From positions 1 through 44,069 of the forward strand of contig JANWXU010000021.1 in the NCBI GenBank assembly GCA_025057395.1: a DNA stretch of 44,069 nucleotides. The letters run 5' to 3'. A program made the position numbers and the translations under genes. This DNA is from Bacteroidia bacterium. GTDB lineage: Bacteria > Bacteroidota > Bacteroidia > J057 > JANWXU01. The notes beneath the pieces were generated by a model. It searched no databases. It was not told the origin of the DNA and was given only the letters and a program-made list of their open reading frames with translations. Below, piece after piece: positions 18,752-39,226 of the stretch; the first letter of the stretch is position 1, and each line of letters starts with the position of its first letter.

Positions 18752-18781
18752 TTGGTAAATTTTAGGATTTAATTAAATTTG
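18752..18781 (+). promoter_or_regulatory. Bacteroidota-type promoter of the larger giant gene
   Basis: TTG (18752-18754), 19 nt spacer, then TAAATTTG (18774-18781), an exact match to TTG-N17-23-TAnnTTTG. Transcription would start near 18785, giving a leader of about 70 nt before the ATG at 18854. The promoter overlaps the TTG at 18779, which therefore cannot be the real start codon. Confidence 0.5.
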
Positions 18782-18853
18782 TATAGCATACCTAATTTGG
18801 GTAAATACTGCTCTGCAGTTAAAATACATGTTTTTATTTGTGAAAAAGTTATT

Positions 18854-21800: not shown

Positions 21801-24800
21801 AATCTACGACCTTTTATTTAGCTTCCGTTCTGAATAATACTAATTGTGAAAGCACTACTCGTACGCCTGTGGCAATTCAAATTAATCCTATTCCCTCCCC
21901 ACCTATCAGTAGTGGGGCATCAATTTGCGGTGTTGGAAGTGTTACTTTTTCATTGCAGCCAGGTATAGTGGCAGGATCGGAGGTGAGACTATATGATACT
22001 CCTAATGCAAGCGTTCCTATATCAATTGATAACTCCCTACCTTTTAATTTATCTACAGGAAACCTTTCTACGACTACTGAATTTTATGCAGAAGCTGTAG
22101 ATGGGGCCTCGGGCTGCAAAAGCCAAAGAGTAAGTCTATTGGCTACCGTTCATCCTGTACCTGGGCTTCCATATGCTGATGATGTGGCTCGTTGTGGCTC
22201 AGGGAAAGTAACTTTTACGGCGGAATTTAGTTTCCCGGGTGGAGACGAAATTCGGCTGTATGATTCTCCTACGCAAGGGAATTTAATAGCCTCTGCCAAT
22301 GGTCCTTTTTTACTAATGACGCCAGATGTTGTGGTTACTACGCCCTTTTATTTAGAGGCTGTGAGTAAGGCCACTGGCTGTAAGAGTGCACGCTATCAAG
22401 TATTGGCTTTGGTCAATATTCCGCCGGGTGACCCTGTAGTACCAACGGTTCAACGTTGCGGACCCGGTATTGTAACTTTTACTGTTTCATTAGGGGCGCC
22501 ACCAGGTAGTGCAGTTGCGCTTTTTACTACGCCGCTAGGGGGGACTCCCATTTCTCAAGATTTACTACCCCCTGTTTACGAACTAACTTCGCCTATTATT
22601 AATAATACTACTACTTTTTATGTAGAAAGTATTAGTACTGCTACGGGGTGTGCTAGCAATCGTGTGCCGGCAATAGCGGTAGTAGAACGTCCTGTAGGGG
22701 CTCCGATTGTACAGCAAGCATCTTCGTGTGGCCCGGGGATAGTAACTTTCACGGTAGCTATGGGCAATCCTGCGGGTAACCAAGTTGTATTATATGAAAC
22801 GCCCAATGCTACAGGATTTGTTTCTAGCGATAATTCTATTCCTTATACGCTTCAGACTTCCTTTCTTATCCAGTCTAAAACATTTTATGTTAGGGCTGTA
22901 AATACGACCACTGGTTGTGTTAGTCCTTTGGTCCCGGTGGAGGCGGTGATATATCCAGTTCCTGGCAATCCGCAGGCCCAAGATGTAAATTTGTGTGCAA
23001 GTGGGTCGGCTACGTTTTCTGCGACTATGGGAGTACCAGCAGGTAACCAACTGCGTCTGTATAATCAACCTAGTGGGGGCACTTTGGTGGCTGTAACTTC
23101 AGAATTACCCTATCGGCTACAAACACCACAGATAAATATTACTACTATTTTTTACCTTGAATCGGTTAATACTACTACGGGCTGTACTAGCAGCCGAATC
23201 CCCGTAACTGCAATTGTCAACCCTAAGCCGGGGAATCCGCTGGTAGCTAACGTGGCACGCTGCGATAGTGGTGTTTTTACCTTTAATCCTCAGATGACCA
23301 ATCCGGTGGGAACAGAAATGCGCCTTTATAATATGCAAAATCAACTACTAGCTACCAGCACTTCTCTAACTAATTTTGCGCTAAATACTCCCTCATTGAG
23401 TACTACTACTTCTTTTTTGATATCCAGTTATAATGCAGTTACGGGCTGTGAAAGTGATAAGGTTACGGTGCAAGCAGTTTTCAATAAGCCGCCTGGTTTG
23501 CCGCAGGCAGCAAATATGGTTTTATGTGGTTCAGGTCCTACCACTATAACGGCCTTCATGGGTTCTCCGATGGGCACAGAGATGCAACTTTATAGTGATG
23601 CTAATGCTACGAATTTAGTAGGCTCTAGCACGGGAGTAGGTTCTGCTTATCCGATTCAGATAGCGAATGTAGCAGCCACCACTACTTTCTATTTGGTTTC
23701 GTTTAATGCCAATACCAATTGTAGAAGTGATAAAAAAGAGATTGTTATCCGGGTAGAGGAAAAACCGGGTCAGCCTATTGCTTCCGACGTACAGCGTTGT
23801 GGCCCCGGAATAGTTACTTTTACTGCCTTCTTTGGCTCTCCGGCAGGAAATCAAGTGCGTATGTATGAACAGGCTACTGGTGGAAATCCTATTGCTATAA
23901 CTAGTTCTTCAGACTTGGAGCTCACTACACCATTTGTTATAAATGCTACTACTACGTATTTTATAGAAAGTTTCAATACAAATACGGGCTGCGGTAGTAT
24001 ACGTACAAGTGTTGTGGCTACAATTAACACTCTACCAGGCATTCCCTCTACGATAGACCAGCTTCGTTGCGGACCTGGTACCGTAGTTTTTTATCCTAAT
24101 AATGGCAATCCTCCAGGGCAGCAGATGTTGCTGTATGAACAGCAATTTGGAGGTACACCTATTGTGCAGGCCAACGTAGGTTCTCCTCTCACTACTCCTG
24201 CTATCACCACTACCACTACTTATTACCTAGCAAGCAAGGATAATGTTTCGGGGTGTGAAAGTATTCGCCGTCCTATTGTAGCTACTATTAATCCTGAGCC
24301 AGCTATGCCTTTTGCTGCCGATGTAGCCCGTTGTGGACCTGGTGAAGTTACCTTCACTGCAGTGATGGGCTCTCCCCCTGGTAATCAAATTCGGTTATTT
24401 ACACAGCCAGTGGGAGGAGCCAGTTTTATTATTGATAGTAATTCTCCCTATACCCTAACTACTACTGTTCAAGAGACTCGGGTGTTTTATTTAGAGGTGG
24501 TCAATATTTTTACAGGTTGTAGTTCTACTACAAGGTTCCCGGTTACGGCGGTGGTGAATAATTTACCTGGTCCTCCAATTGCTGCTAATGTTACAAGTTG
24601 TGGAGTAAGCAGTATTACCTTTACTGCATTTATGGGGTCTCCCGCAGGAGATATCCTCAAGCTATACACACAGCCTTCGGGAGGAATACCCGTAGCTATT
24701 GATGCTACTTCTCCCTTTGAACTTACTACCGAAACTTTAGCACAAACCACTTCTTTTTACTTAGAAGCCGAAAATTCGATTACTGGCTGTGTAAGTCCGC

Positions 24801-27800
24801 GTACTCAAGTAATAGCTACAATACAACCTCTTCCAGGCCCGCCTATAGCTGCTAATATTAGTACTTGTGGTTCTGCGTCTGTTACTTTTTCGGCAGCTAT
24901 GGGCAGTCCACCGGGTACTGAAGTTCGGTTATTTATAAGTCCGGCAGGGGGAGCACCCCTTGCTTCTGCAGCAGGCACTAATTTGTTGCTTACCTCTCCC
25001 CCTATCACAACTAGTACAATTTTCTATTTGGAAAGTTTTGATGCTAATACTGGTTGCCGTAGTATTCGTACCCCCGTTAGTGTGACGCGCGGAGCTGAGG
25101 TAGGAATTCCTACAGCTTCCAACGCAGTTCGTTGTGGTGAGGGGAATGTTATCATTACTGCTGCAATGGGTATTCCATCAGGAAACGTTTTAGAACTCTA
25201 TACTCAATCTGTAGGAGGAAGTCCTATTGTAACTGATAATATTCCCCCTTTTGAATTAGTTACTCCCCTTATTACTACTACCACTACGTACTACGTAGGA
25301 AGTTTGAATACCGCAACGGGGTGCAGAAGCCTTAGAACGCAAGTGCTGGCTCTAGTTTCTAAGGTGCCTGAACCTCCGATAGCCAATAATGTAGCACGCT
25401 GTGGAATAGGAAGTGTATACTTTACTGCCGGAATCACTGATTTTTATGGGGATGCTATTCGTGTCTATCAAACTTCAGCAGGCAACACTCTACTTTATGA
25501 AGATATTAACTTTCCCTATGAATTCACGACCCCATCTTTGGAAACTACTACTACGTTCTATTTATCTAGTGTAAATCGTGTATCAGGCTGCGAAAGCTTA
25601 AGAATTCCCTTACTGGTAACTATTACTTCACCTCCCGGAATTCCTACTGCTCTGCCCGTTGCTCGCTGCGGCGCAGGAAGCCTTGTTTTCACGCCTAGTA
25701 TTGCTCCTAATAGTGTGGACGAGGTGCGTCTATATAATGATCAAAATGAGTTGGTAATGGTAAGCACTACTCCCCCTTACTTACTAACTACGCCAATTTT
25801 ATATTTTGATGCTATTTTTAGCATTGAGGCAGTACGTGATGGGTGTTTGAGTCAAAGGGGTCAAGTTTTAGCAAAAGTTAATTCTATTCCTGCTCCCCCT
25901 TTTGTTGGAAACGTTACTCGATGTGGAGAGGGGGCGGTAACTTTTACCGCGAGTGCCACTTATCCTCCTGGCACTCAACTAGAACTCTATTCCACCCCTG
26001 TAGGAGGAGTTCCCTTGAGCACAGATAGTAGTGAGCCCTATGAGATGGTAACTCCCCATTTATTAACCAGTACTACGTTCTACGTTGCACATCGTAATCA
26101 ATTCACAGGTTGTGTTAGCGAAAGAACGGTTGTTGTGGTGACGGTGTACTCGGGAGTTGTTTTACCCCAGGCAGCACCTGTAGCAAGATGTGGGGCAGGG
26201 CGCGTAATTTTTTCTGCGACTATGAGCTCTCCGGCAGGTGATGTAATCCGTCTGTATGATACGCCTAGTGGGGGGCAACCCCTTGCTACTGACGCTTACG
26301 ATCCGTTTACCATTACTACTCCCGAAATTTCGCAGACTACTACTTTTTATCTGGAAAGCTTAAATTCTCAAACCGGATGTGTTAGTATTGGACGGACGCC
26401 AGTAACTGCTATTGTAAATATTCCGCCGGGTATTCCTAATTTTACGAGTATAGGGCGCTGTGGTGCAGGAATTGCTACTTTGACAGCTATTATGTCGGCG
26501 CCAGGCGGTACCGAAGTTCGTTTCTATGATGCGCCGCAAGCAGGAGCTTTACTTGCGAAAGATAACACTTCTATTTACGAATTTGTTACTCCTATCCTTA
26601 CAACAACTACTACGTATTATGCTGCTAGCTTTGATGCGGCTACAGGATGTGAAAGTTTTAGAGCTCCTGCAGTGGTTACTATTCATCCGGTTCCGGGTAC
26701 TCCTACTGTTAGTAATGCTTCTCGGTGTGGGGCTGGGAAGGTTGTTTTTTCAGCTATGATGGGTGTACCCTCTGGAACTGATATTCGCTTATATTCTTCT
26801 AATATAGTAGGGGCTGCGGCAGTGGATATCGATACAGAAAGTCCTTTTGAGTTAAGCACGCCTACCATTTCTTCTAGTACGATATACTTTGTAGCTAGTT
26901 ACAATGCCCAAACAGGATGCGAAAGTGCAAGGATTCCCGTAACGGCTGTAATTCATCCTTTTGCTTCTTTACCTGTTGCTGAAAATGTTAAGCGTTGTGG
27001 TCCGGGAATAGCAACTATTGTGGCTACGATGCCTTCCGCCCCCGGTAATCAAGTTCGTCTATTTGAAGTACAACAAGGTGGAGTACCGATTGTTATAGAC
27101 CCAGAACCGCCCTTTTTACTTCCTACTCCTGTCATTTCCACTAACACTACTTATTATATAGAGGGCTATAATGCGAGTCGGGGTTGTCCAAGCACTAACC
27201 GTTTGCCAGTGGTAGTGACTATCCAAGAGCTTCCGGCGCCCGCTATAGTAGAGGAAGTAGTAAGGTGTAGACCAGGAATTTTGACATTTACTGTTCGTAT
27301 TGGCAATCCGCCAGGTAATAAAGTAAAACTTTATGATAATCTTCTTGCTATTAATCCTATTGCTGTTGCATTTGCACCTCCCTACACATTAACTACAGGT
27401 ACAGTTATTGCGAGCACTACTTTTTTTATAGAAGTGGAAAATACGCAAACAGGCTGTAATAGTGAAAGAGTACCTGTGGGAGCCAAGATTGTTGTTGCTC
27501 CTGATATGCCCTTTGCACAGGATGTTGAAAGATGTGGGCCGGGCGTTGTTACTTTTACAGCTGATATGGGCTTTTTACCCGGAAATCAAATTTTAATGTA
27601 TTCTTTGCCTGTAGGTGGTCTGCCACTACAAGCAGACGCCTCCCCTCCCTATACTTTTCAAACAGAAGTTTTACAGGCTACGCGTACTTTTTATTTAGCT
27701 AGTTATAGCTCTGCTACGGGTTGTGAAAGTGAACGTCGCTTAGTTACCGCTACTATTTACCAAAGGCCAGGTCCGCCTTTAGCAGCTGAAGTTGCACGAT

Positions 27801-30800
27801 GTGGAGCCGGTAGCATTACATTTACTGCGACAATGGGTAGCCCTGCAGGTTCTAAAATTGCGGTCTATGATTCTCCCCAGGGAAATGTACCCATTTCTGT
27901 AGTGACTGCGGCTCCTTATGAAATCGAGACTCCATTTATTGCTACAACCACTACTTTTTACTTAGAAAGTATAATTGGTTCCACTGGTTGCGTAAGTGAT
28001 CGCAGCCCTATAGTGGCGAGGGTGAATATTGTGCCTGCAGCCCCTAGTGTAGAATCTGTTAAAACTTGTGGAGGAGGACAAGTTACTTTTTCTTTAGTAC
28101 TACCTAGTCCTGCTGGAAATGTAGTGCGTGCTTATACTCTACCCTCTTCGGGAGCCCCAATTGCCCTTGATTTGCAGCCGCCATATGAAATTAGCCTCAA
28201 CGTTCAGGTGACTTCTACCTTTTATTTTTCCTCTGTAATCAGTACTACCAACTGTGAAAGTATGCGTAGTGCTGCTATTGCAGAAGTATTTCCTAAGCCA
28301 GGGATACCCGCAGTGTTGGATGTTTCTCGCTGTGGACCGGGTTCTGTTACTTTTACTGCCACTATGACTTCACCCCCTGGTTCACAAATTCGAATTTATA
28401 ATGCTCCGACAAGTGGATTACTTTTGGGTATTGATAATACTTCTCCTTATTTGTTGAATACTCCTGAGGTTAATCAAACGACTACTTATTATTTTTCCAG
28501 CTTCAACACGGCTACTAACTGTGAGAGCGACCGCGTAGCAGCTGTGCTTACCGTGCAGCCTATTCCAGCAGAACCTACAGTAATAAATATGGCGCGCTGT
28601 GGTCCGGGGCCAGTTACTTTTACAACAACCATGAATCAGCCTATGGGTAATGAAATGCGTTTATTTGAGGCTTTTAGTGGCGGAAATGCTATTGCACGTG
28701 ATAAGGTGGCTCCTTACTTGCTTTCGGTGCCCTATGTGGCTGCGACGCGTTCTTATTTTGTGCAAGCTGTGGACACTTCAACAGGATGTGAAAGTAAAAG
28801 AGTCCCAGTAGATATAGAAATTCGCACTTTGCCTTTTGCCCCTAAGGTGAGTGACGTTAGTATTTGTGGGCCAGGTAGTGCAACTTTTACAGTAGATTTG
28901 TTGGCAGGCTCTACTGCTGGGTTACGTGCTCTTCTATATACGGTTCCTGTAGGCGGGGCACCTATATTCACTGATATTTTACCGCCTTATGAACTGGTAG
29001 CTACGAACCTTTTTGCTACTACTACCTTTTATGTAGAGTTTTATAACGCAAATATTCTTTGTTCGAGCCCAAGGGTACCTGTTATTGCAAATGTATTACC
29101 TAATCCTAGCCAGCCGACGGTTTCCTCTGTTTCTCGCTGTGGCAGGGGTAGCGTAACAATTAATGCTTTCATGGGTAGTGTTCCAGGGCAGGAGATACGA
29201 TTTTATAATGTGCCTTCTGGCGGTGAACCTCTTTTTGGAGATGATACTTCTCCCTATCGATATGTAACACCTAGTTTAGAGAATACTACTGTATTTTACG
29301 TAGAGGCTGTTGGGGCAGGAGGATGTAAAAGTCAGCGAACAGCTGTTTCTGCAGTGATACATCCATTGCCAGCAAAGCCTGCTGTAAGTAGTGTACAGCG
29401 TTGTGGAGCGGGTGTGGTTACTTTTACGCCCGCCATGGGAATACCTGCAGGAAATATGACGCGCCTATACGACCAAGCTGATTTGATAGTAGCTACCAGT
29501 ACTATTGCGCCTACTTATGCTCTAACAACCCCTAACCAAACTACCACCACTATATATTATATTGATAGCTATAATTCTATAACAGGCTGTGCGAGTGAAA
29601 GGGTGCCCGTTTCAGCAATTATTGTTCCTTTACCGGGTTCTCCCAAATCTATGGATATAGAAAGATGTGGTGCTAGTATTGTGACATTTACTGCTGAAAT
29701 GGGTAATCCTCCGGGTGAGCGAATTGCAATTTATACTTCTCCCACAGCCACTACTCCTTTAAGTGTAGATAATCATCCCCCCTATGAATTTACAACTCCT
29801 TTAAATACTACTTCTACGGCTTACTACTTAGAGGCTATTTCTCAAGTATTAGGATGTAGAAGTATACGTACAGTTGTTAATGTTACAATTCTTCCTGTAC
29901 CCGTTCCTAGTGTAAGTAGTAATACGCCTGTTTGCTTAGGTTCAGTGGTAAACCTTTCAGCTTCTGCTCCTCCGGGTACCACTTTCTTTTGGCAAGGGCC
30001 AAATGGTTTTACTGCTGAAGGTTCTAATCCTTCTTTTGTCGCCACTTCTAGTGCTGTTGCAGGCTTATATACTCTTACTGCTAAATTAGGGAATTGTACG
30101 TCTACGCCTATTACACAAGATATTTCGATTACTCTTACGCCTATTACACCCATAGCTACCTACTACAATGTTTTGCAAGAAGAGCAGCCTTTATGCGAAG
30201 GGCAGGAGTTGAACTTACGGGTAATTAATATTCGTGATTATCCGCCGGGTGCTACTTTCATTTGGAGTGGTCCGGCGGGGTATTATCTCTCTTCCGAGCT
30301 TGCTTTCCCGGCAATTCCTAATATGACTACCGATAGGGAAGGACTCTATTATGTAGCTGTGGTGGTAAATGGATGTACTTCTGCTACTTCTCAAGGAGTA
30401 GAAGTGAAAGTATTTAAGCGGCCGCCGCCACCGGTAGCTACCAATAATTCACCCCTTTGTGCAAATACAGGGCTTATACAGCTTTATGCTTCAGAAGTGC
30501 CTGGTGATATTCGATATGTGTGGGAAGGTCCTAATAACTTTACAGCCACTACTCGGACAGCAGCACGTTTGCCCATTCCTGCTAATGCAGGAACCTATTA
30601 TGTACAGGCTATTGATAAAAATGGTTGTCGCTCAGGCTTGGATTCAACGGTAGTGGTCATTAAACAAAATCCGCAGCAACCGGTGGTTCAAGTTTCAAAT
30701 CCTATCTGTGTTGGCAGTGAACTACGCTTCACAGTAGCGGGCTTGCTAGGTACTGAGTTTCGAGTACGGGGTCCTAATAATTACAGTGCTGTAGGCTTAG

Positions 30801-33800
30801 GTCCAGAATTTACTCGCTCTAATATAACTTTTGCAGATGCAGGTGTTTATAGTTTTGTAGCTGTTATAGATGGTTGTTCATCCGCAATATCTCGAGTGGA
30901 AGTAGCACCGAGAGCTACGCCTGCTATGCCATCGGTAAGTAGTAATGGGCCTGTTTGCCAAGGTCGAACTTTATTACTAACGGCTATTAGCCAGGGAGCA
31001 ACCCTCTATAAATGGACAGGACCAGCAGGGTATGATGTATTGGTAAATACTCCACAAGTTGCTAGGCTCAATGCACAACCTAATTTTAGTGGAAACTATA
31101 GTGTGACGGCTATTGCTAATGGATGTACTTCTATGCCTGCTACTTTAGCTGTAGTAGTCAATTTTACTCCGGCTTCGCCGGTTGTTTCTAATCCTATACC
31201 CCTTTGTCCGGGTGAGATACTAAGTATGACAGCTTCGGGAGCAGGTAATGTAAATTATCATTGGATGGGTCCGGGGGGCTTTGCAGCCACAGGTTCTAAT
31301 ATTACTCGAATTATACAGTCGAGTTTGCAGGGGGGAATTTATAGTGTTGCTGCTTTTCAAAGCAATTGTACCTCCGCTCCCGTAACTCGGATTGTAGTGG
31401 TAAAACCCAAGCCGGAAACCCCAACTGTAAGTAATAGTGGTCCTGTTTGTATTGGTCGGGAAGTCCTCTTTACGGCAACATCTTCTCAAGTAGCTAGTTT
31501 TAACTGGGTAGGGCCTGCTGCTTTTGTTGCAAGTGGTGCTAATGTGATACGCCCTATTACTAGTACTCTAGAAGCAGGTATTTACTCCGTAACTGCTACG
31601 GTGGATGGATGTGTTTCTGACCCCGCAACCACGGACTTAACTATACTGCCATCTCCGCCTGTTCCTTTTGTAAGCTCTAATGCTCCTTTATGTATAGGAC
31701 AAACTTTAAGACTTAGTGCTAGTGGAGGTCCTCTTAACGCTGTATATGTTTGGAGCGGACCTAATGGTTTCTCTGCCTCTACTAACATGCCTACTATTGA
31801 ACGGCCAGCGCTAGGTATCAATGATGCAGGTGCTTATAGCGTCTATATTCAGGTACCAGGCTGTAATTCAGACCCCGGTTCTGCTTTTGTTTCGATAATT
31901 CCTAAGCCTAGCCGCCCGGGCGCGCAAAGTGATGCTCCTAAGTGTGTGGGCGAGATGGTCACTTTTAATGCGGTAGGGCCTACTGCTCTAACTTATCGCT
32001 GGCGCGGTCCTAATAACTTTAATGAAACAGGGCAAGTGGTTAGTCGTTTTCTTACTTCAACTTTGCAAGCAGGCACCTATAGTGTAGTAGCTGTTTCGGG
32101 CAGTTGCGAGTCTGACCCTGGAGAAGTAAATATTGTGGTACGTCCCAAACCGCCTGCTCCTTTTGCTGAGAACGATGGACCTAAGTGCGCCGGACAAAAC
32201 ATTCGTTTAACGGCAACAGGGATAGCAGGAGCGAGCTATATATGGCAAGGACCTAATGGTTTTAGCTCTACAGGCGCAACAGTATCTCGTACCTTAAGTA
32301 CATTATTGGATGCAGGTTCTTATAGTGTAAGCGTAGTAGCAGGGGGATGTACTTCCACAGTAACTACTACAGAAGTTCGTGTAAAGCCCGTTCCACCGCC
32401 TATTGAAGCAAGCAGTAATTCGCCCTTGTGTGTAGGAGATCTTTTGCAACTTACTGCAACAGCTATTCAAGGGGCTACTTATGGTTGGCAAGGGCCAGAT
32501 GCTTTTTTGGCAGGAGTACCCCAGCCTACCAGGTCAAATGTTACTACAGCACAAGCGGGTATTTATTGGGTTGTTGTTAGCTTGGATGGATGTACTTCAC
32601 GCCCGGCCACAGTAGAAGTAGTTATTAATGAAAGACCCCTTAATCCAACGGTTACAAGTAATAGCCCCTTATGTGCAGGTTCTACGTTAGAGTTGAGTGC
32701 TAATTCACCCTCAGCGGCGGCAACTTATCTTTGGGATGGACCTGGTGGTTTTGTTTCTAGGGAAAAGAGCCCCGAACGTTTAAATGTAAATACTCCCGAT
32801 GAAGGGGTTTATAACGTAGTGGCTATTATTGGTAATTGTACTTCGGATATCTCTTCTACTTATGTGATAGTTCGAAGAAGACCCAACCCACCTATGATAA
32901 CTAATAATAGTACTCTTTGTGAGGGGCAGAATTTACAGCTTAACGCAAGCCTTGTGCCTGGAGCTACTATTCGTTGGACAGGGCCGGCTAACTTTATATC
33001 TAACGAATTAAATCCTGTTCGTCCTAATGTTAATCGTACTTTTGCGGGTATATATAATGCAGTAGCTATTCAAAATGGCTGTACTTCAGCCACAGCTTCT
33101 ACAACTGTTGTTATTAATCCTACACCACCGCCCGCTATTATTAGTAGTAACTCACCTGTTTGTGCTGGCTCTACGTTATCATTGACTGCTTCCATAGTAC
33201 CGGGCGCTAGCTACCGGTGGAATGGTCCTGAAGGTTTTTCTTCGACTTTACAAACTCCTAGTATTAATAATGTAGCTCTTAATCAAGGAGGGGTATATAC
33301 TCTTATTACTCTGATAGGTAATTGTGCCTCCACTCCTGCTACTACAGAAGTAGTAGTAGAGCCTGCTCCTCTTAATATCACGGCAGGTAATAATGGGCCG
33401 CTTTGCGCAGGGCAAGATTTGGTACTTTCGGCTACTTTTGTGCCAGGGGCTACTTATCTCTGGAATGGGCCTAATGGCTTTACTTCTTCGCAGCAAAATC
33501 CATTACTTCCTAAGGTAACTGTGCGTGAAAGCGGCTCCTATTCGCTCACTGTTCGAATAGGAGATTGTATTGCGCAAGCTACTACTACTGTAATTATCCA
33601 AAACGCTATTACTCAACCTCCGGCTATCAATAGTAATGCACCTATTTGTGCGGGGCAAAATTTACAGCTTTCTACTTCTGCAGTAGTTGGTGCTACTTAC
33701 AGTTGGGTAGGACCCAATGGCTTTACCTCCCTATTGCAAAACCCAGTTATTCCTTCTGCCACCACGGCTAATAGTGGTACTTATAGTTTAACGGTTCGAG

Positions 33801-36800
33801 TTGGGGCATGCGTATCGCCGGTAGCTTCGGCAGAAATCTTGGTGCGTCCTACTCCTACTTCTGTGGGTATAGAGACGAACGGTTCGACTATTTGTGCTGG
33901 CTCCCCACTTCGTTTTAATGCCTCTTTTATATTAGGAGCTCGTTATCATTGGAGCGGTCCTAATGGCTTTATTTCTTCTGAACAGAGCCCGGTAATTGCC
34001 AATCCTGCTGTAGCTAATAGTGGTACGTACTCTCTAATTGTTACACTAGGGGAATGCAGTTCGGCGCAGGTGACTACTAATATTACAGTTAATCCTAAAC
34101 CATCGGGGATAGCTGCTTTTAATTCAGGTCCAGTGTGTTCAGGAAGAAACTTACTGCTAACGGCTTCCTTTTTGTCGGGAGCAAGTTATCAATGGAGCGG
34201 TCCTAATGGTTTTAGTGCGGGTTTCCAAAATGTTACTATTTCGAACGTACAGATTGCTGCAGCTGGAATTTATACTTTGATAGCAAGAGTAGGAGGATGT
34301 AACTCTGATCCTATTACTACTATTGTAGAGGTTATTCCTACGCCGGAGGCGCCGAATGTGCTTTCTAATTCTCCTTTATGTAGTGGAGAAACTCTTAGAC
34401 TAACAGCAACCCCTGTATCAGGAGCGCGTTACTTTTGGAGCGGTCCATTAGGGCTTAATGCTACAGATAGAGTGGCTACTTTTACAAATGTAAGTCCGCC
34501 CTATAGTGGCAATTATAGTGTGGTAGCTATAGTGGGGGGCTGTACTTCTGCGCCTGGAGTGGTACCTGTAATAGTAAATCCTAATCCACAGCCTCCGATT
34601 ATAAGAGCTCCTTCGCAGATTTGTAGTGGGCAGACTTTACAGCTTTCTACAGAGTTGCAACCAGGTGCAGAATATGAATGGCGTGGACCTAATAACTTCC
34701 TAGCAAGAGAAGTTGCTCCTATAAGGCAGAGTGTAACTACTGCCGATAGAGGTATTTATAGCTTGATAGTCTCAATTGGTCGTTGTGTTTCTGACCCTGC
34801 GTTGACCCTAATAGAAGTAATACCTACTCCTCCTGCACCAATTGTGAGAAGTAATACTCCTGTCTGTGCAGGTGGTAACTTACAATTAAGTATTAATCCG
34901 CTAGCGGGTGTGACTTATAGCTGGCGAGGTCCCGCAGGTTTTAGTTCTGCTTTGGTTAGTCCTACTTTATTTAATGTGGGTACAGCAAATGCAGGAATGT
35001 ACAGTGTGGTGGCTTCTTTAGGTAATTGTTCTTCTGCAACGGTTTCTCATAAAGTAGAGGTGGTTCCGATTCGGAATATAGACGCCAATTCTAACGGTCC
35101 CTTATGTACTGGTCAAACTTTGAATTTATCCGCTACTTTTGTGGAGGGGGCAACCTATCAATGGTTTGGACCTAATAATTTTAGAAGTCTTGCGCAGAAT
35201 CCTAGCATTGTAAATGTAGGTATACAAGCTGCTGGTTTGTACTCGGTAATTGCCATTTTAGGGAATTGTACCAGTAATACTGCAGTAGTGAATGTAGGTA
35301 TAACAGCAATTCCAGATAGACCCAATATTTACAATAACAGTCCTTTGTGCGAGGGAGAAACTTTGCAGTTAAGTACAGATTTTATACCCGGAGCTAGCTA
35401 TAGCTGGAGTGGACCGCGTAATTTTTCTTCCAATGGCTCTATTGTTACTCGCTCTAATCTTCGTACTCATGATGCGGGAGTGTATAGTTTGCTTGTGCAA
35501 GTGGGGGCTTGTACAGCAAATTTAGCAACTACCATAGTGGAGATAAACCCAGCCCCTCTTAACCTAATTGCTAGAAGTAACGCTCCAATTTGTGCTGGTT
35601 CTACTTTGTTGCTTTCTGCAAATTTTATTAACGGGGCTAATTATAATTGGCGAGGGCCAGCAAATTACTCGGCTTCAGGTCCTGCTCCAGTTGTTCCAAA
35701 TATTAGTACTGCACAGGCAGGTCTTTATACTGTGACCGCCACTTTAGGAAATTGTACTGCAAGGTCTGTGGTGAATGTGGAAGTAGGAGCTACTCCTGAG
35801 GTGCTAGAGGTGCGTAGCAGCTCTCCTGTGTGTGTAGGGGGAGTGCTCGAACTCTATGCGCCGCTTATACCAGGGGCAAATTACAGTTGGGTAGGACCTA
35901 ACGGTTTTTCTTCTGCTGTAGCCAATCCTGTTCGTTCAAATATCAGCTTGGCAGATGCGGGAGAATATACACTAACTGTATTTGCAGCAGGTTGTAGCTC
36001 TCGGGCAGCTAAAACTTTAGTGGAAGTATTTACTCAGCCTGAACGCCCAGTGGTAAGGAATAATGGACCTTTATGTGCGGGTCAAAACTTAGAGCTTTTC
36101 GCCACTTCCATTCCAGGAGCTAGATATTTATGGAGCGGTCCAGGAGGCTTTAGCAGCACTGCACAAAATCCTATTCGCCTAGGTGTGAATGCTTCGATGG
36201 CGGGTCGTTATACTGTAGTTGCGCTGTTGAATGAATGTGTTTCGTTGCCTACTACTACAGAGGTAGTAATTAGTGAGCCAAGGGCTAGTATTCGGGCTAT
36301 TAAGCCGGTTATTTGTGCAGGTGATTCTTCGGGTATAGAAATCGATCTACAAGGAATTGCTCCTTGGCGTTTGCAATATCGAGAGAACGGTATTTTGGGC
36401 GAGTTTTTTGTTACGCAGACTCCATATCGGGTTTCACTTCTGCCCCCTGGTAATATCAGTTATACATTAGTGAGTCTTATTGATGGTTTAAACTGTGCTG
36501 TGGAGCTCAAAAGCAGTGCAGAAATTGAGGTTGTTGCAGAGCCTATTGCTCAATTATTAAATGCTACTACTATTTGCCCGGGAGACTCTAGTAAGTTTTC
36601 AATTTTAATACAAGGTCTTCGAGAGCAAGATGAATGGAGCCTAGTTTATGGAATTGAAAATCGCGAATTTAATGCTCGGGGTAAGGGCAGTGGAGTTATT
36701 CATTTATTTACTCCTCCACTTTATAGTAACACAACTATTCGATTAAGAACCCTTGATAATTTAACTGTAGGGTGCCGTCGTTTGCTAAATAGTAGTATAC

Positions 36801-38728
36801 CTGTCAAGGTAATACCCCCTGCTACTGCTCGCTTTATTTCTGAAGATATGACTATTTGTGAGGGGGTAGAAATTAATTGGGGCTTTGAACTAACAGGAAA
36901 AGGACCGTGGCAAGTGGCATATGCTGTAAATGGAGCGCCGGATACTTTGGTTTTGGGTACTGCTGCTACGCCTTCGCCTGCAAGATTTACCTTTTCTTAT
37001 TTTCCGCGGCAAACAGTTACATACGAAATATTGAACGTACGAGGAGCAGATGGTTGCTTTGCGGGTGCCCAAGATACCTTTACAATTTTCGTGAATCGTT
37101 TACCGCGACCTGCTAGTGGAGTGCGTTCAAATTCGCCAGTTTGCACAGGCGATACTTTGCGTCTTTATGCTTCAGGGGAGGTGGGTGCAGATTTCTTTTG
37201 GAAAGGACCTAATGGCTATACTTCGTTAACTGCTAACCCTATAATTATTCCTGTTAAAAAAGAAAATGAAGGGGTTTATACCGTAGTGACAATTGCCCGA
37301 GGATGTACTACGAATGTACCTATAGAAACTCGAGTCCAAGTACGTCAAAGGCCTTCGGTATCTGTAATTGCTAGGCCTGCTGAAATTTGTATTGGCCAAG
37401 CAGCGGAGCTAATCTTGAACTTTAACGGAGGTCCCGCATTTTCGTTTGCATGGCAAGAAGGAGAAGCGGGTGCAAGAATAGTGAATGGTGTAGAATCGAT
37501 GCACTACCGATTAACCGTAGTGCCTCAAACCGCAGGTGATAAGCGTTATATAATTTCTCAGCTTATTGATTCAGCGGGTTGTGTGGGCCTAAGTGCGCAA
37601 ACTACTTTACGAGTTTTGCCCAATCCTTTTGTGGAAGTATTAGAAGTAACAGAGCCGGGTTGTGGTAGACCTACAGGTAGAATAAAAGTTCGAGGAAGAG
37701 GTGGGGTAGATTCTCTTTATCGGTATGGTATTTCAGGAAGAGAAAGCATGAATACTAGTGGAGAATTTGACGAATTAAGAGGGGGAGTATATACTGTGAC
37801 GGTTTTTTCGGGAGGGTGTAGTGCTACGGCGCAGGTAGTGATGCCGAGTGCGGCTCAGGCGGAAATTACAGCTATCACCTCTACCGAAGAGCAGGCTCAT
37901 AATTCAGTTACTCTTACTTGGCAGTCTACTGCAGGTGCTGCTAGCTACACTTTGCTATATAGAGTGAGTGGAGAAGCTAATTGGAGAGAAGTGAGTGGTA
38001 TTAGGAGTACTAGTTATACCCTACAAGGTCTATCTCCTAATACGCGATATGAATTTAGTATTCGTACCCTTTGTGCTAATGGTCAAGTTGCGGGTAATAG
38101 TGCTATCCAGACTTATACTACGGCTTCTCCATCTGCAGGTTGTTTAACGCCTGGCAATATTACGGTTCAAAATATTACTCGTAGTAGTGCTAGAGTAACA
38201 TGGCGAGCAGTGAGTGGAGCAGTTTGTTATATTATCACATATGGTCCTGTAGGTACTCCTGCGAGTACTTGGAGTCAGTTATTAGTTCCAGCTAATGCTA
38301 CTTCTACCCAGCTAGATAATTTGCAGGCAGGAGTTCGTTATGGGGTAGTAATGCAAACGAATTGTAGTTTATGTTCATCGCGTGCTGGTACTCGTTCTAC
38401 AGAAAGTAATATAATAGAGTTCCTTACTTTGCCTAGCAGGGAGGCGCAACAAGTAGGAAGCGAATTGATTTTAGTCAATGCCAAACTCTACCCTAACCCT
38501 ACTCAGGGTAAAGTGATACTAGAAGTTTCTAACTTTAGCATTTCGGAATTAGAGATTAGGATATTAGACCTAGAAGGTAGAGTACTACAAAAGCAATATA
38601 TACTAGGAAAAATGGATGATGTATTGCAAGTGGAGTTAGACTTAAGCAATTATTCAAGTGGGATATATATACTGCAGTTGCAAAGCAAAGGTATAATTAA
38701 GACACAGAAAATTATAGTGCAAAAGTAG
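18854..38728 (+). CDS. Giant T9SS-secreted Ig-repeat surface protein, 6624 residues
   Basis: Predicted secreted or surface fibre of about 0.7 MDa, in the size class of the gliding adhesin SprB. I chose the ATG at 18854 because it gives a lysine/arginine-started signal peptide (MKRIYNNILISLIELSALIG, then ALKAQ); the frame upstream starts only at TTG within the promoter. Residue ranges are approximate: 33-3683, 41 RCG Ig-like repeats of about 89 residues; 3683-5808, 26 W/GP Ig-like repeats; 5810-6085, three PW-type Ig-like repeats; 6085-6165, a 27th W/GP repeat; 6167-6258, a fourth PW repeat; 6258-6337, an SprB-like repeat; 6337-6528, two fibronectin type III domains; 6541-6624, a type A T9SS sorting domain (LYPNPTQGK). 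No enzyme domain and no N-terminal cap domain are visible. The frame is uninterrupted over almost 20 kb. Role in adhesion, gliding or matrix is inference. Confidence 0.92.
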   Translation: MKRIYNNILISLIELSALIGLFAFAPTQALKAQCPAEPLLPASVSICGAGVVTLTPSLVSPMGDGVRLYTQGTGGTPFSTSIIPPYLLNTPFTTVTTTYYVASFIFASGCESARVPVVVNVYPVPAPPASTNFSRCGEGNVSITASTGTPFANQVLLYTLPSGGSAVDASVGPPYVLTSPFLFTTTNLYLEAKNTVTGCASASRTQVTVTIHPIPGVPTVPDIVRCGPGISTFTVTNGSPPGSVMRLYTQSTGGLPIATDDTPPFLLSDPNPIFTSTIYFISSRSAAGCESNRVQVGVTVLPPLAPPTAPSFSQCGPGPALITATMNTPAGNEMRIYTTPLPGYPPFAIDQVPPYTFAIPYLTTTTTFYVESGFSNNTCASSRVPVVITVHPVPGAPTAANVFKCGVGQLTFTGIMGTPTGDEMRLYTTIAGGTPVQTAGFPFLLTTPAVTVYTNVTYYLEAVQTQTGCASPRTQVVAQFLTEPNPPIATGVARCGMGQVTFTAFMGAAPGDQIKIYSVPTGGLPINTFYSPFLIPSPTVSVTTSFYLEAFNSVTNCSSTTRTLVVATVHPLPAPPSVPSAERCGVGSVVFTATMNIPAGDQVRIYTTTNPLTTPLAIDGAAPYFLTTPLLTINTPFFFTVYNSQTGCESPPIQSTAVIHNAPLPSEPSALDVTRCGSGPVTFSVQMGTVPGNEIRLYTTATAQFPIATVAQAPYHITTPELFQSAVFYISAGGLFSCESNRVPVIATVHPIPGPPQAQNVARCGPGSVIFTANMTTPLGTQINLLDASLGLVATGVTNNQFQFTTPGLATTTAFYLEVENVSTGCKSTQIQVLGIINPLPPPPSSTNVLRCGSGPVTFLIGGADITEAYLYPVPVGGAAIASAVGVPYSLTTPDIFATTSFYIERKNSAGCTSGRFEVVATVLPVPPPPIASNLSRCGPGSVEITATLGSGDRIRLYTQSQGGVPILEALPPFFIQTPNLSESTTFYLASVLNNTNCESTTRTPVAIQINPIPSPPISSGASICGVGSVTFSLQPGIVAGSEVRLYDTPNASVPISIDNSLPFNLSTGNLSTTTEFYAEAVDGASGCKSQRVSLLATVHPVPGLPYADDVARCGSGKVTFTAEFSFPGGDEIRLYDSPTQGNLIASANGPFLLMTPDVVVTTPFYLEAVSKATGCKSARYQVLALVNIPPGDPVVPTVQRCGPGIVTFTVSLGAPPGSAVALFTTPLGGTPISQDLLPPVYELTSPIINNTTTFYVESISTATGCASNRVPAIAVVERPVGAPIVQQASSCGPGIVTFTVAMGNPAGNQVVLYETPNATGFVSSDNSIPYTLQTSFLIQSKTFYVRAVNTTTGCVSPLVPVEAVIYPVPGNPQAQDVNLCASGSATFSATMGVPAGNQLRLYNQPSGGTLVAVTSELPYRLQTPQINITTIFYLESVNTTTGCTSSRIPVTAIVNPKPGNPLVANVARCDSGVFTFNPQMTNPVGTEMRLYNMQNQLLATSTSLTNFALNTPSLSTTTSFLISSYNAVTGCESDKVTVQAVFNKPPGLPQAANMVLCGSGPTTITAFMGSPMGTEMQLYSDANATNLVGSSTGVGSAYPIQIANVAATTTFYLVSFNANTNCRSDKKEIVIRVEEKPGQPIASDVQRCGPGIVTFTAFFGSPAGNQVRMYEQATGGNPIAITSSSDLELTTPFVINATTTYFIESFNTNTGCGSIRTSVVATINTLPGIPSTIDQLRCGPGTVVFYPNNGNPPGQQMLLYEQQFGGTPIVQANVGSPLTTPAITTTTTYYLASKDNVSGCESIRRPIVATINPEPAMPFAADVARCGPGEVTFTAVMGSPPGNQIRLFTQPVGGASFIIDSNSPYTLTTTVQETRVFYLEVVNIFTGCSSTTRFPVTAVVNNLPGPPIAANVTSCGVSSITFTAFMGSPAGDILKLYTQPSGGIPVAIDATSPFELTTETLAQTTSFYLEAENSITGCVSPRTQVIATIQPLPGPPIAANISTCGSASVTFSAAMGSPPGTEVRLFISPAGGAPLASAAGTNLLLTSPPITTSTIFYLESFDANTGCRSIRTPVSVTRGAEVGIPTASNAVRCGEGNVIITAAMGIPSGNVLELYTQSVGGSPIVTDNIPPFELVTPLITTTTTYYVGSLNTATGCRSLRTQVLALVSKVPEPPIANNVARCGIGSVYFTAGITDFYGDAIRVYQTSAGNTLLYEDINFPYEFTTPSLETTTTFYLSSVNRVSGCESLRIPLLVTITSPPGIPTALPVARCGAGSLVFTPSIAPNSVDEVRLYNDQNELVMVSTTPPYLLTTPILYFDAIFSIEAVRDGCLSQRGQVLAKVNSIPAPPFVGNVTRCGEGAVTFTASATYPPGTQLELYSTPVGGVPLSTDSSEPYEMVTPHLLTSTTFYVAHRNQFTGCVSERTVVVVTVYSGVVLPQAAPVARCGAGRVIFSATMSSPAGDVIRLYDTPSGGQPLATDAYDPFTITTPEISQTTTFYLESLNSQTGCVSIGRTPVTAIVNIPPGIPNFTSIGRCGAGIATLTAIMSAPGGTEVRFYDAPQAGALLAKDNTSIYEFVTPILTTTTTYYAASFDAATGCESFRAPAVVTIHPVPGTPTVSNASRCGAGKVVFSAMMGVPSGTDIRLYSSNIVGAAAVDIDTESPFELSTPTISSSTIYFVASYNAQTGCESARIPVTAVIHPFASLPVAENVKRCGPGIATIVATMPSAPGNQVRLFEVQQGGVPIVIDPEPPFLLPTPVISTNTTYYIEGYNASRGCPSTNRLPVVVTIQELPAPAIVEEVVRCRPGILTFTVRIGNPPGNKVKLYDNLLAINPIAVAFAPPYTLTTGTVIASTTFFIEVENTQTGCNSERVPVGAKIVVAPDMPFAQDVERCGPGVVTFTADMGFLPGNQILMYSLPVGGLPLQADASPPYTFQTEVLQATRTFYLASYSSATGCESERRLVTATIYQRPGPPLAAEVARCGAGSITFTATMGSPAGSKIAVYDSPQGNVPISVVTAAPYEIETPFIATTTTFYLESIIGSTGCVSDRSPIVARVNIVPAAPSVESVKTCGGGQVTFSLVLPSPAGNVVRAYTLPSSGAPIALDLQPPYEISLNVQVTSTFYFSSVISTTNCESMRSAAIAEVFPKPGIPAVLDVSRCGPGSVTFTATMTSPPGSQIRIYNAPTSGLLLGIDNTSPYLLNTPEVNQTTTYYFSSFNTATNCESDRVAAVLTVQPIPAEPTVINMARCGPGPVTFTTTMNQPMGNEMRLFEAFSGGNAIARDKVAPYLLSVPYVAATRSYFVQAVDTSTGCESKRVPVDIEIRTLPFAPKVSDVSICGPGSATFTVDLLAGSTAGLRALLYTVPVGGAPIFTDILPPYELVATNLFATTTFYVEFYNANILCSSPRVPVIANVLPNPSQPTVSSVSRCGRGSVTINAFMGSVPGQEIRFYNVPSGGEPLFGDDTSPYRYVTPSLENTTVFYVEAVGAGGCKSQRTAVSAVIHPLPAKPAVSSVQRCGAGVVTFTPAMGIPAGNMTRLYDQADLIVATSTIAPTYALTTPNQTTTTIYYIDSYNSITGCASERVPVSAIIVPLPGSPKSMDIERCGASIVTFTAEMGNPPGERIAIYTSPTATTPLSVDNHPPYEFTTPLNTTSTAYYLEAISQVLGCRSIRTVVNVTILPVPVPSVSSNTPVCLGSVVNLSASAPPGTTFFWQGPNGFTAEGSNPSFVATSSAVAGLYTLTAKLGNCTSTPITQDISITLTPITPIATYYNVLQEEQPLCEGQELNLRVINIRDYPPGATFIWSGPAGYYLSSELAFPAIPNMTTDREGLYYVAVVVNGCTSATSQGVEVKVFKRPPPPVATNNSPLCANTGLIQLYASEVPGDIRYVWEGPNNFTATTRTAARLPIPANAGTYYVQAIDKNGCRSGLDSTVVVIKQNPQQPVVQVSNPICVGSELRFTVAGLLGTEFRVRGPNNYSAVGLGPEFTRSNITFADAGVYSFVAVIDGCSSAISRVEVAPRATPAMPSVSSNGPVCQGRTLLLTAISQGATLYKWTGPAGYDVLVNTPQVARLNAQPNFSGNYSVTAIANGCTSMPATLAVVVNFTPASPVVSNPIPLCPGEILSMTASGAGNVNYHWMGPGGFAATGSNITRIIQSSLQGGIYSVAAFQSNCTSAPVTRIVVVKPKPETPTVSNSGPVCIGREVLFTATSSQVASFNWVGPAAFVASGANVIRPITSTLEAGIYSVTATVDGCVSDPATTDLTILPSPPVPFVSSNAPLCIGQTLRLSASGGPLNAVYVWSGPNGFSASTNMPTIERPALGINDAGAYSVYIQVPGCNSDPGSAFVSIIPKPSRPGAQSDAPKCVGEMVTFNAVGPTALTYRWRGPNNFNETGQVVSRFLTSTLQAGTYSVVAVSGSCESDPGEVNIVVRPKPPAPFAENDGPKCAGQNIRLTATGIAGASYIWQGPNGFSSTGATVSRTLSTLLDAGSYSVSVVAGGCTSTVTTTEVRVKPVPPPIEASSNSPLCVGDLLQLTATAIQGATYGWQGPDAFLAGVPQPTRSNVTTAQAGIYWVVVSLDGCTSRPATVEVVINERPLNPTVTSNSPLCAGSTLELSANSPSAAATYLWDGPGGFVSREKSPERLNVNTPDEGVYNVVAIIGNCTSDISSTYVIVRRRPNPPMITNNSTLCEGQNLQLNASLVPGATIRWTGPANFISNELNPVRPNVNRTFAGIYNAVAIQNGCTSATASTTVVINPTPPPAIISSNSPVCAGSTLSLTASIVPGASYRWNGPEGFSSTLQTPSINNVALNQGGVYTLITLIGNCASTPATTEVVVEPAPLNITAGNNGPLCAGQDLVLSATFVPGATYLWNGPNGFTSSQQNPLLPKVTVRESGSYSLTVRIGDCIAQATTTVIIQNAITQPPAINSNAPICAGQNLQLSTSAVVGATYSWVGPNGFTSLLQNPVIPSATTANSGTYSLTVRVGACVSPVASAEILVRPTPTSVGIETNGSTICAGSPLRFNASFILGARYHWSGPNGFISSEQSPVIANPAVANSGTYSLIVTLGECSSAQVTTNITVNPKPSGIAAFNSGPVCSGRNLLLTASFLSGASYQWSGPNGFSAGFQNVTISNVQIAAAGIYTLIARVGGCNSDPITTIVEVIPTPEAPNVLSNSPLCSGETLRLTATPVSGARYFWSGPLGLNATDRVATFTNVSPPYSGNYSVVAIVGGCTSAPGVVPVIVNPNPQPPIIRAPSQICSGQTLQLSTELQPGAEYEWRGPNNFLAREVAPIRQSVTTADRGIYSLIVSIGRCVSDPALTLIEVIPTPPAPIVRSNTPVCAGGNLQLSINPLAGVTYSWRGPAGFSSALVSPTLFNVGTANAGMYSVVASLGNCSSATVSHKVEVVPIRNIDANSNGPLCTGQTLNLSATFVEGATYQWFGPNNFRSLAQNPSIVNVGIQAAGLYSVIAILGNCTSNTAVVNVGITAIPDRPNIYNNSPLCEGETLQLSTDFIPGASYSWSGPRNFSSNGSIVTRSNLRTHDAGVYSLLVQVGACTANLATTIVEINPAPLNLIARSNAPICAGSTLLLSANFINGANYNWRGPANYSASGPAPVVPNISTAQAGLYTVTATLGNCTARSVVNVEVGATPEVLEVRSSSPVCVGGVLELYAPLIPGANYSWVGPNGFSSAVANPVRSNISLADAGEYTLTVFAAGCSSRAAKTLVEVFTQPERPVVRNNGPLCAGQNLELFATSIPGARYLWSGPGGFSSTAQNPIRLGVNASMAGRYTVVALLNECVSLPTTTEVVISEPRASIRAIKPVICAGDSSGIEIDLQGIAPWRLQYRENGILGEFFVTQTPYRVSLLPPGNISYTLVSLIDGLNCAVELKSSAEIEVVAEPIAQLLNATTICPGDSSKFSILIQGLREQDEWSLVYGIENREFNARGKGSGVIHLFTPPLYSNTTIRLRTLDNLTVGCRRLLNSSIPVKVIPPATARFISEDMTICEGVEINWGFELTGKGPWQVAYAVNGAPDTLVLGTAATPSPARFTFSYFPRQTVTYEILNVRGADGCFAGAQDTFTIFVNRLPRPASGVRSNSPVCTGDTLRLYASGEVGADFFWKGPNGYTSLTANPIIIPVKKENEGVYTVVTIARGCTTNVPIETRVQVRQRPSVSVIARPAEICIGQAAELILNFNGGPAFSFAWQEGEAGARIVNGVESMHYRLTVVPQTAGDKRYIISQLIDSAGCVGLSAQTTLRVLPNPFVEVLEVTEPGCGRPTGRIKVRGRGGVDSLYRYGISGRESMNTSGEFDELRGGVYTVTVFSGGCSATAQVVMPSAAQAEITAITSTEEQAHNSVTLTWQSTAGAASYTLLYRVSGEANWREVSGIRSTSYTLQGLSPNTRYEFSIRTLCANGQVAGNSAIQTYTTASPSAGCLTPGNITVQNITRSSARVTWRAVSGAVCYIITYGPVGTPASTWSQLLVPANATSTQLDNLQAGVRYGVVMQTNCSLCSSRAGTRSTESNIIEFLTLPSREAQQVGSELILVNAKLYPNPTQGKVILEVSNFSISELEIRILDLEGRVLQKQYILGKMDDVLQVELDLSNYSSGIYILQLQSKGIIKTQKIIVQK
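18950..29900 (+). repeat. 41 RCG-type Ig-like repeats (about 89 residues each)
   Basis: The consensus is VARCGPG.VTFTA.MG.P.G, then .RLY....GG.PIA....PY.LTTP, TTTFYLES.N..TGC.S.R, and PV.A.V.P.PG. I counted 41 anchors of the CG type; units 16 (LCASG), 17 (RCDSG) and 32 (RCRPG) vary at the anchor. Two cysteines recur about 60 residues apart in each unit. The motifs after the anchor match CHU_C-associated Ig-like (Ig_7) domains. Codon choice differs between units, so no recent duplication is evident. Confidence 0.88.
29902..36278 (+). repeat. 26 W/GP-type Ig-like repeats (about 82 residues each)
   Basis: The consensus is SNSPLCAGQTL.L.A...PGA.Y.W.GPNGF, then NV..A.AG.YS(V/L)....G.CTS.......V.P.P. 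Units 2 to 4 are irregular: unit 2 has an insertion before the Trp, unit 3 replaces C.GQ by CANT, and unit 4 has FRVRGPNNY without Trp. From unit 10 on, the array is more regular. Confidence 0.88.
36280..37625 (+). repeat. Four PW-type Ig-like repeats with one W/GP repeat inserted
   Basis: Three units (about 36280-37105) share IC.GD or IC.G.., a .L.G..PW.L.Y strand, a long loop, then .TYEI..V....GC. A single W/GP unit follows (SNSPVCTGDTLRLYASGE; 37110-37350), and then a fourth diverged unit (EICIGQAAELIL; 37350-37625). Such domains occur among the Ig-like repeats of other Bacteroidota giant proteins. Their function is not known to me. Confidence 0.65.
37625..38435 (+). other. SprB-like repeat followed by two fibronectin type III domains
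   Basis: The segment opening TEPGCGRPTGRIKVRGRGG and ending GGVYTVTVFSGGCSATA resembles the SprB repeat found in gliding adhesins. Two fibronectin type III domains follow. The first has VTLTWQSTAGAASYTLLYR and LSPNTRYEFSIRTLC; the second has SARVTWRAVSGAVCYIITYG and LQAGVRYGVVMQTNC. They form the stem between the Ig arrays and the sorting domain. Confidence 0.7.
38475..38725 (+). other. T9SS type A sorting domain of the 6624-residue giant
   Basis: The last about 84 residues begin AKLYPNPTQGKV, contain LEIRILDLEGRVL and SSGIYILQLQ, and end in IIVQK. This is the canonical type A C-terminal targeting domain. It differs from the type B domain used by SprB itself, so the export and anchoring route should be the A-type one. 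Confidence 0.92.
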
Positions 38729-38800: not shown

Positions 38801-39226
38801 ATTGGTATGTGTATTACTGTTGTTCAAGTTTTTTAAACCTGATTAACTATGTGAGTATTATTTTGGGGAAAAATTTTAATAGCCTTTGTGGGTTTTGGCT
38901 TTTGTATTTTGACAGCTATTTATTGGGAAAAATTTTAATTTATTTTTGTCTTCTCCCCTACAAAGAATTAAAGCAATAGTTCCTATACTACTTTTGTATT
39001 GAGAGTAGCCTTTCGTTAGCTCTAAAGGAAGGGAATTATTGGGTTTTTCTTTGCGAATACCCAAATAAAACTCTATGGTGGAAACACTTTTTTGTTATAT
39101 TTACAATACAAAAATAAATAAGGAGATTGGTTATTCGTAATAGCGGAGTTTGGAAGTTGAAGTGAAAAAAATAATCTAGAATCTAGGTCTGTTTTTTATT
39201 TTTTGCCAACTCAAAAGAATGTAACC
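38801..39226. other. Gene-free stretch between the giant gene terminator and the E1 gene
   Basis: About 425 nt with no credible gene; the 62-codon minus-strand frame at 38876-39064 has no recognisable features. It holds a 15-bp direct repeat, GGGAAAAATTTTAAT, at 38866-38880 and 38925-38939. Two exact matches to the -7 pattern are present, TATTTTTG (38941-38948, with a TTG 15 nt upstream) and TACTTTTG (38989-38996, without a -33 partner). Either could start a long-leader E1 transcript, but such matches are expected by chance in A+T-rich DNA. Confidence 0.4.

Follow-up and report, generated by a model that had tools for sequence, protein, structure and literature searches.

A conserved pair of immunoglobulin-like units at the array switch of giant T9SS-type repeat proteins in a Bacteroidia bacterium

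Results

The 44,069-nucleotide (nt) stretch analysed here (the window; contig JANWXU010000021.1 of the Bacteroidia bacterium assembly GCA_025057395.1, GTDB lineage J057; JANWXU01) encodes two giant repeat proteins, each of which switches, at a short junction, from one type of immunoglobulin (Ig)-like repeat to another; the junction is the subject of this work. Giant A (window positions 18779..38728, + strand, 6649 aa) consists of an RCG (Ig_7) array, the junction, a W/GP Ig-like array, fn3 domains and a type IX secretion system (T9SS) type A sorting domain. Giant B (4792..17613, − strand, 4273 aa) starts with DUF7948 and PKD domains, followed by an RCG (Ig_7) array, the junction, a W/GP Ig-like array and a sorting domain of the same type. 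The two unit types, told apart by profiles made from A and B, are denoted R (RCG, Ig_7) and W (C.G...W.GP), and in both giants the R array comes first. On the + strand, the R array of A comprises 41 units (18953..29893, approximate bounds), its W array past the junction extends over 30917..36290 (approximate end), and its sorting domain occupies 38366..38728 (TIGR04183, 48.1 bits). The corresponding features of B, all on the − strand, are 23 R units at 8818..14840 (approximate upstream bound), a W array at 5060..7770 (approximate bounds) and the sorting domain at 4792..5154 (TIGR04183, 34.6 bits). The R units of B match the Pfam family PF19081 (Ig_7) in 15 stretches (517.4 bits, cut-off 27.3), but stretches of the two junction blocks are hit as well (64.6 bits for A), and the family has no power to tell R, W and junction units apart.

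A sequence-only reading of this DNA had placed a shared block of four irregular repeats at the RCG-to-W/GP transition. The site and the layout of the block were right: both blocks lie on the switch, in frame at 29903-30916 in A (+ strand, residues 3709-4046) and at 7780-8817 in B (− strand, residues 2933-3278). In A, unit 1, the first W unit past the switch, covers 29894..30142 (anchor Cys codon at 29933); it is followed by the two core units, unit 2 (30143..30418, Cys codon 30194) and unit 3 (30419..30667, Cys codon 30458), and by unit 4 (30668..30916, Cys codon 30707), which lacks the central Trp and, like unit 1, is weakly position-specific. In B, on the − strand, the order is unit 1 (8563..8817, Cys codon 8778), core units 2 (8290..8562, Cys codon 8511) and 3 (8038..8289, Cys codon 8250), and unit 4, again without the central Trp (7771..8037, Cys codon 7998). 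Unit 2 is irregular in both proteins in the way described, with a longer segment ahead of the Cys that contains YN, a C.GQE.NL start, a P.G(A/T).F.W segment and a longer spacing; in A, it reads YN...PLCEGQELNL...YP.GA.F.W. The lengths of the two blocks are close as well (1013 and 1037 nt), but this says little because unit length barely varies.

The repeat phylogeny suggested as a check, built from an alignment of all W units of A and B (45 in total), bore out the four-unit block only in part. The two unit 2s are sisters (support 0.95) and each other's top cross-protein match, and the two unit 3s, likely counterparts, are mutual best cross-protein matches yet not sisters. Units 1 and 4 did not pair: across the proteins, the counterparts of unit 1 rank 7 of 17 and 17 of 28, and those of unit 4 rank 11 of 17 and 19 of 28. 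The listed motifs are common to A and B, but several are not general, with C.N present at unit 3 in 4, and FTA.T in 2, of the 23 junction proteins described below. The loss of the Trp at unit 4 is enriched, although not universal (8 of 23 junction proteins vs 7 of 337 array units; Fisher p 4e-7).

When the unit 2-3 segment of giant A was used as a query in its own genome, matches were found on many contigs. About 57 repeat open reading frames (ORFs), defined as those with at least three units above 15 bits, add up to 552 kb in an assembly of 4.08 Mb (13.5%); both the count and the share are approximate because some of these ORFs are fragments of one contig-cut gene and others surfaced later. 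The share of the genome taken up by giant surface proteins is unusually large, and many of them are cut by contig ends; examples are C167:9745-33567 (7941 aa; C stands for contig) and those on C180, C182, C213, C217 and C222. With a profile made from 21 junctions, 23 proteins have a unit 2 score between 69.7 and 122.6 and no other protein exceeds 65.0, a separation that is partly circular, so that independent position tests were employed. Directly before W1 (the first W unit), 22 of the 23 junction proteins have an R unit, and the 23rd has a mixed array ahead. The pair formed by units 2 and 3 (W2 and W3) is preceded by 1-45 R units and followed by 13-28 W units, a range that leaves out one contig-end fragment. 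By eye, the proteins on C206 and C24 look like diverged members, and those on C174 and C216 have a unit 3 at the right place (scores 64.6 and 61.4) next to a weak unit 2 (41.1 and 38.1). The end of C106 (L166) and the start of C221 (L047) both fall inside unit 2-like sequence, and a further junction is probably split across these contigs. The reversed order, with the W array ahead of the R array, was observed in L054 and L088 (C88:5683-18210) and in L079 (C42).

The position tests were applied to 24 proteins that had been chosen by a single feature, a stretch of three R units that leads into five contiguous W units. In leave-one-out profile comparisons, in which every W unit of the protein set aside was scored and the one at the same position ranked, unit 2 ranked first in 20 of the 24 proteins and unit 3 in 16, compared with 8 for unit 1, 6 for unit 4 and 1 to 6 of 23-24 for W positions 5 to 10, where 1.2-1.4 are expected by chance. 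The failures were C172, C22, C184 and C24 for unit 2, and C172, C22, C184, C217, C233, C178, C163 and C206 for unit 3. A position permutation on double-centred scores, for the 23 proteins left after one without a usable tenth unit was set aside, gave residuals of 71 for W2 (z 57) and 38 for W3 (z 30), the other positions being at about 12 or less with z below 10. Centring matters for unit 3, since without it z was just 2.1 for W3, compared to 6.9 for W2 and 5.1 for W10.

A tree built for the 24 switch proteins and four more found via unit 2 (28 proteins, 519 W units) is in agreement with these tests. A pure clade (support 0.935) holds 20 of the 28 unit 2s, and 17 of the 28 unit 3s fall in one 18-member clade (support 0.858); no other position comes near this clustering, the best F1 being 0.42, for W10. 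A second, weaker positional signal is hinted at for W10, with its uncentred z of 5.1 and 9 of 26 W10 units in a 17-member clade. At the other array ends (R units counted back from the switch, R units from the start, W units back from the end), the same-position unit ranked first in 0-4 of 14-21 cases against a chance expectation of 1.0-1.5; because these ends are near chance, units 2 and 3 are not mere array ends, and an array-edge effect was ruled out. A block of four units was likewise rejected, units 1 and 4 failing the comparison of A with B and being weakly positional among the 24 proteins. The within-protein clustering predicted for array units proved to be a weak effect, in that 30 of 408 units at position 5 or later have their nearest neighbour in their own protein, compared to 15.9 expected; accordingly, independent recent expansion of the arrays is not seen in the sequences.

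The pair also carries a signature of its own. The W1-W2 spacing is at least 86 aa in all 23 junction proteins and the W2-W3 spacing at least 85 aa in 22 of them, compared with a median of 81 aa among array units 5 and later, where 1.6% of 314 spacings reach 86 aa. In the numbering of giant A's unit, which begins 17 residues ahead of the first Cys, unit 2 differs from 100 array units by Y8, N9, F11, E22, N24, N29, P34, T37, F39, H53, P54 and F55; one residue position of unit 2 is missing in most array units. The marks of unit 3 include R54, P55, N60 and G73, and units 1 and 4 have few marked columns. Among 22 proteins, mean between-protein identity is highest for W2 (37.3%) and W3 (34.2%), with W1 at 31.8%, W4 at 29.1%, W5-W8 at 28-33% and the last R unit at 28.6%; for the C-terminal domain (20 proteins), it is 23.5%. 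Recent gene conversion was ruled out because the longest identical DNA shared by any two proteins is 15-21 nt at each of W1-W8. Distances between proteins are correlated for W2 and W3 (rho 0.31, p 0.002) and for W3 and W4 (rho 0.27, p 0.004). By these measures, the pair is old and travels as a block.

The closest relative of known structure is grappling hook protein A (GhpA) of Aureispira sp. CCB-QB1 (PDB 9flp, 9fls, 9flu-9fly and 9g8b; 56 chains across the 8 entries). Against PDB sequences, the four-unit profile matches GhpA in 25 stretches with 1784.8 bits, the runner-up scoring 85.1 bits, and giant B alone matches GhpA with 1206.2 bits. For the predicted four-unit structure, made with 19 aligned sequences (predicted local distance difference test, pLDDT, 93.6; predicted template modelling score 0.68), Foldseek placed GhpA fragments at ranks 1 to 8. 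By VIA-align, ranks 1 to 8 were GhpA fragments as well (Z 17.1-20.2, 24-29% identity over 317-325 residues, root-mean-square deviation 5.7-7.0), the best other protein having Z 12.8; the GhpA neck fragment came first, Z values within 1 counting as ties. The string and neck of GhpA and the W arrays studied here are thus built from one family of Ig-like domains, and GhpA, at 5898 aa, is like A and B a giant with a long W-type series. No significant match to the N-terminal (hook) region of GhpA was found with giant B, which matches from residue 1135 on (the single earlier match scored -12.0 bits). For the type VI secretion sheath, a component of the ixotrophy machinery, no match in the genome was detected with PF05943 or PF17541, the latter being without a match in any control genome either.

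The C-terminal ends are uniform and the N-terminal ends are not. TIGR04183 scores above its cut-off in all 10 C-termini scanned, [YF]PNP occurs in all 24 uncut C-termini among the 28 proteins, and the genome encodes the SprA translocon, so that the Por_Secre_tail sorting domain and the translocon expected for T9SS type A cargo are both present. The N-terminal domains vary, including DUF7948 in B, IgGFc_binding (221 bits) in C164:18715-28977 and DUF2341 (67 bits) in C213:3-17273, and 3 of the 10 N-terminal regions scanned have no match at all. Such varied domains ahead of the arrays suggest exchangeable tips.

Among the compared genomes, the family of this bacterium is represented by its own genome alone, in whose assembly a search for SSU rRNA gave no match. 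No junction with E<=1e-36 was detected in 21 other genomes of the order (up to the best 150 candidates per genome), and among 395 genomes of the class, its own included, the top match outside its own genome reached 120.5 bits (best 9 candidates per genome). With a profile of R-W1-W2-W3, the best match among 395 genomes of the phylum scored 188.4 bits and did not include the R part (up to the best 5 candidates per genome); weak or second-rank junctions may escape such searches, which scored the best candidates of each genome. A full-length R-to-W match (210.3 bits) exists in one genome of the order, G006, whose sequence, when read through, contains no unit 2 (41.5 bits). The R-to-W layout is thus present in another family of the order (G006, G013) without the pair, and many genomes of the class carry W-type arrays. 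Two loci in metagenome-assembled genomes of Saprospiraceae match at 31-35% identity, with best unit 2 scores of 32 and 21. On the simplest reading of these sequences, the R-to-W layout would be older than the unit 2-3 pair. A literature search returned no description of such a junction; the primary GhpA paper lay outside its coverage, and we do not claim that the junction is absent from print.

Within the window, giants A and B lie on opposite strands and are divergently transcribed, with a small cytidylyltransferase gene (PF02348; 17836-18603) between them. Downstream, positions 39203-41653 encode a single chain with E1-dehydrogenase and transketolase-type domains.

Discussion

The observation made on the two giants of the window is real, and it is both wider and narrower than first described: it extends to about two dozen proteins of a GhpA-like T9SS family, and it comprises two units rather than four. 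At its core, the junction consists of two Ig-like units, a pair that each protein has a single time and that in 22 of 23 proteins takes the second and third W-type places past the switch. At least 23 giant paralogues of the T9SS type in one genome have this pair, and its conservation across proteins exceeds that of the other W units. The proposed ancestral, position-specific element maintained amid changes in array length is thus supported for units 2 and 3, although not in its four-unit extent.

T9SS cargo with a type A sorting domain is anchored through its C-terminal domain, and because of this anchoring the W array is expected to lie next to the cell, with the R array farther out and the variable domains at the tip. 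Each giant would then be a surface line held by its C-terminal sorting domain, in which the W array may form a stalk, the RCG array a longer outer segment, and the unit 2-3 pair a fixed joint between the two. Divergence from the neighbouring units presumably keeps the pair single copy, and selection would maintain it for one specific contact, the arrays on either side remaining free to change in length. Such a contact could most plausibly be strand-to-strand packing of the kind found in the GhpA heptamer, or else docking through the long N-terminal loop and the HPFP loop of unit 2; we prefer these functions by analogy with GhpA. That the pair is a single-copy joint between stalk and tip in T9SS-secreted, GhpA-like adhesins appears to us to have an even chance of being correct.

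The comparison with GhpA has its bounds. Heptamers of this T9SS-secreted protein form the hooks that attach to prey flagella, according to the account in PMC11205867; heptamer formation and flagellum binding are known for GhpA alone. By sequence, no RCG array like that of A and B was detected in GhpA. MpAFP and BAP are further examples of giant surface adhesins with long series of Ig-like domains (of ~100 aa or 80-110 aa). Both leave the cell by other export systems.

Several observations weigh against a joint of this kind. The function and the oligomeric state are a proposal. Nothing in the PDB matches the R units, and the outer segment is therefore without a counterpart in GhpA by sequence. 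Nor is a unit 2 clearly recognisable in GhpA, whose highest-scoring stretch with the unit 2-3 profile (105.5 bits) does not include the beginning of unit 2; array units in this genome score up to about 130 bits with the same profile. The pair is without a counterpart in 3 of the 24 switch proteins (C172, C22:6940 and C184), and the second giant of C22 also lacks it, so that it is not indispensable. Moreover, W2 distances are uncorrelated with those of W1, W5, W7, the last R unit and the C-terminal domain, and simple whole-gene descent is accordingly not the full story. Finally, the boundary between R and W units is predicted as confidently as the other linkers. In the models, confidence is high over this boundary and over the unit 2-3 and 3-4 linkers; the sole marked stretch of low confidence, in both models, is the N-terminal loop of unit 2 (pLDDT ~70 vs ~95). 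The earlier designation of the junction as a hinge is thus unproven and finds no support in the models, given also that pLDDT cannot show flexibility.

The alternative that survives best is passive retention, under which units 2 and 3 are single-copy remnants at an array boundary that were spared tandem turnover without any special selection. The pair indeed lies near the boundary, its divergence from array units would be expected to block unequal crossing-over, and W1 and W4 are weakly positional as well. However, W1, the outermost unit, shows weaker positional conservation than W2 and W3, the other array ends are near chance, and W2 is the unit most similar between proteins; we therefore regard passive retention as unlikely, though deserving of consideration. 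A second alternative places a processing or anchoring site in the exposed N-terminal loop of unit 2, where a protease or a partner would release or cap the outer segment. The low confidence of this loop in the models is compatible with such a site, as are its conserved Y, N and F, which array units hardly ever have, but no known cleavage motif was identified, and the conserved features also include the NxxxFPxGTxF and HPFP segments as well as unit 3, beyond the needs of a cut site, which makes this possibility rather improbable. It also has been considered that the pair is a recombination handle through which paralogues swap outer segments and stalks by homologous crossover, yielding new combinations of adhesins. 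Linked W2-W3 and W3-W4 distances, in the absence of correlation of W2 with W1, W5 or the C-terminal domain, are what such exchange could produce, and the N-terminal domains differ between the giants; nevertheless, identical DNA between any two unit 2s is at most 18 nt, too short for efficient exchange now, and we consider such a handle improbable indeed. Chance or low-complexity likeness of two repeat proteins without positional homology accords with the failure of units 1 and 4 and of the C.N and FTA.T motifs to generalise, and for units 1 and 4 it still holds when A is compared with B, but it is refuted for units 2 and 3 by the 24-protein position tests and the unit tree and can hardly be entertained as a general explanation.

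Returning to the joint between stalk and tip, a broader and more speculative extension, which we think unlikely to hold in full, is that this bacterium may deploy two dozen or more grappling-line proteins built on one plan, in which units 2 and 3 serve as a universal connector that joins a GhpA-like stalk to an RCG outer line and sets the oligomer, with exchangeable tips and lengths around an unchanging point of assembly.

Whatever its role, the pair provides a testable landmark in otherwise uniform giant repeat proteins, two domains among dozens being treated differently by selection. Should GhpA-like strands be organised by this joint, it would account for the persistence of a defined architecture in very long T9SS adhesins whose repeat number changes. 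In that case, the pair would also hint at grappling-hook-like surface lines far beyond Aureispira, which in the bacterium studied here would occupy about one seventh of the genome.

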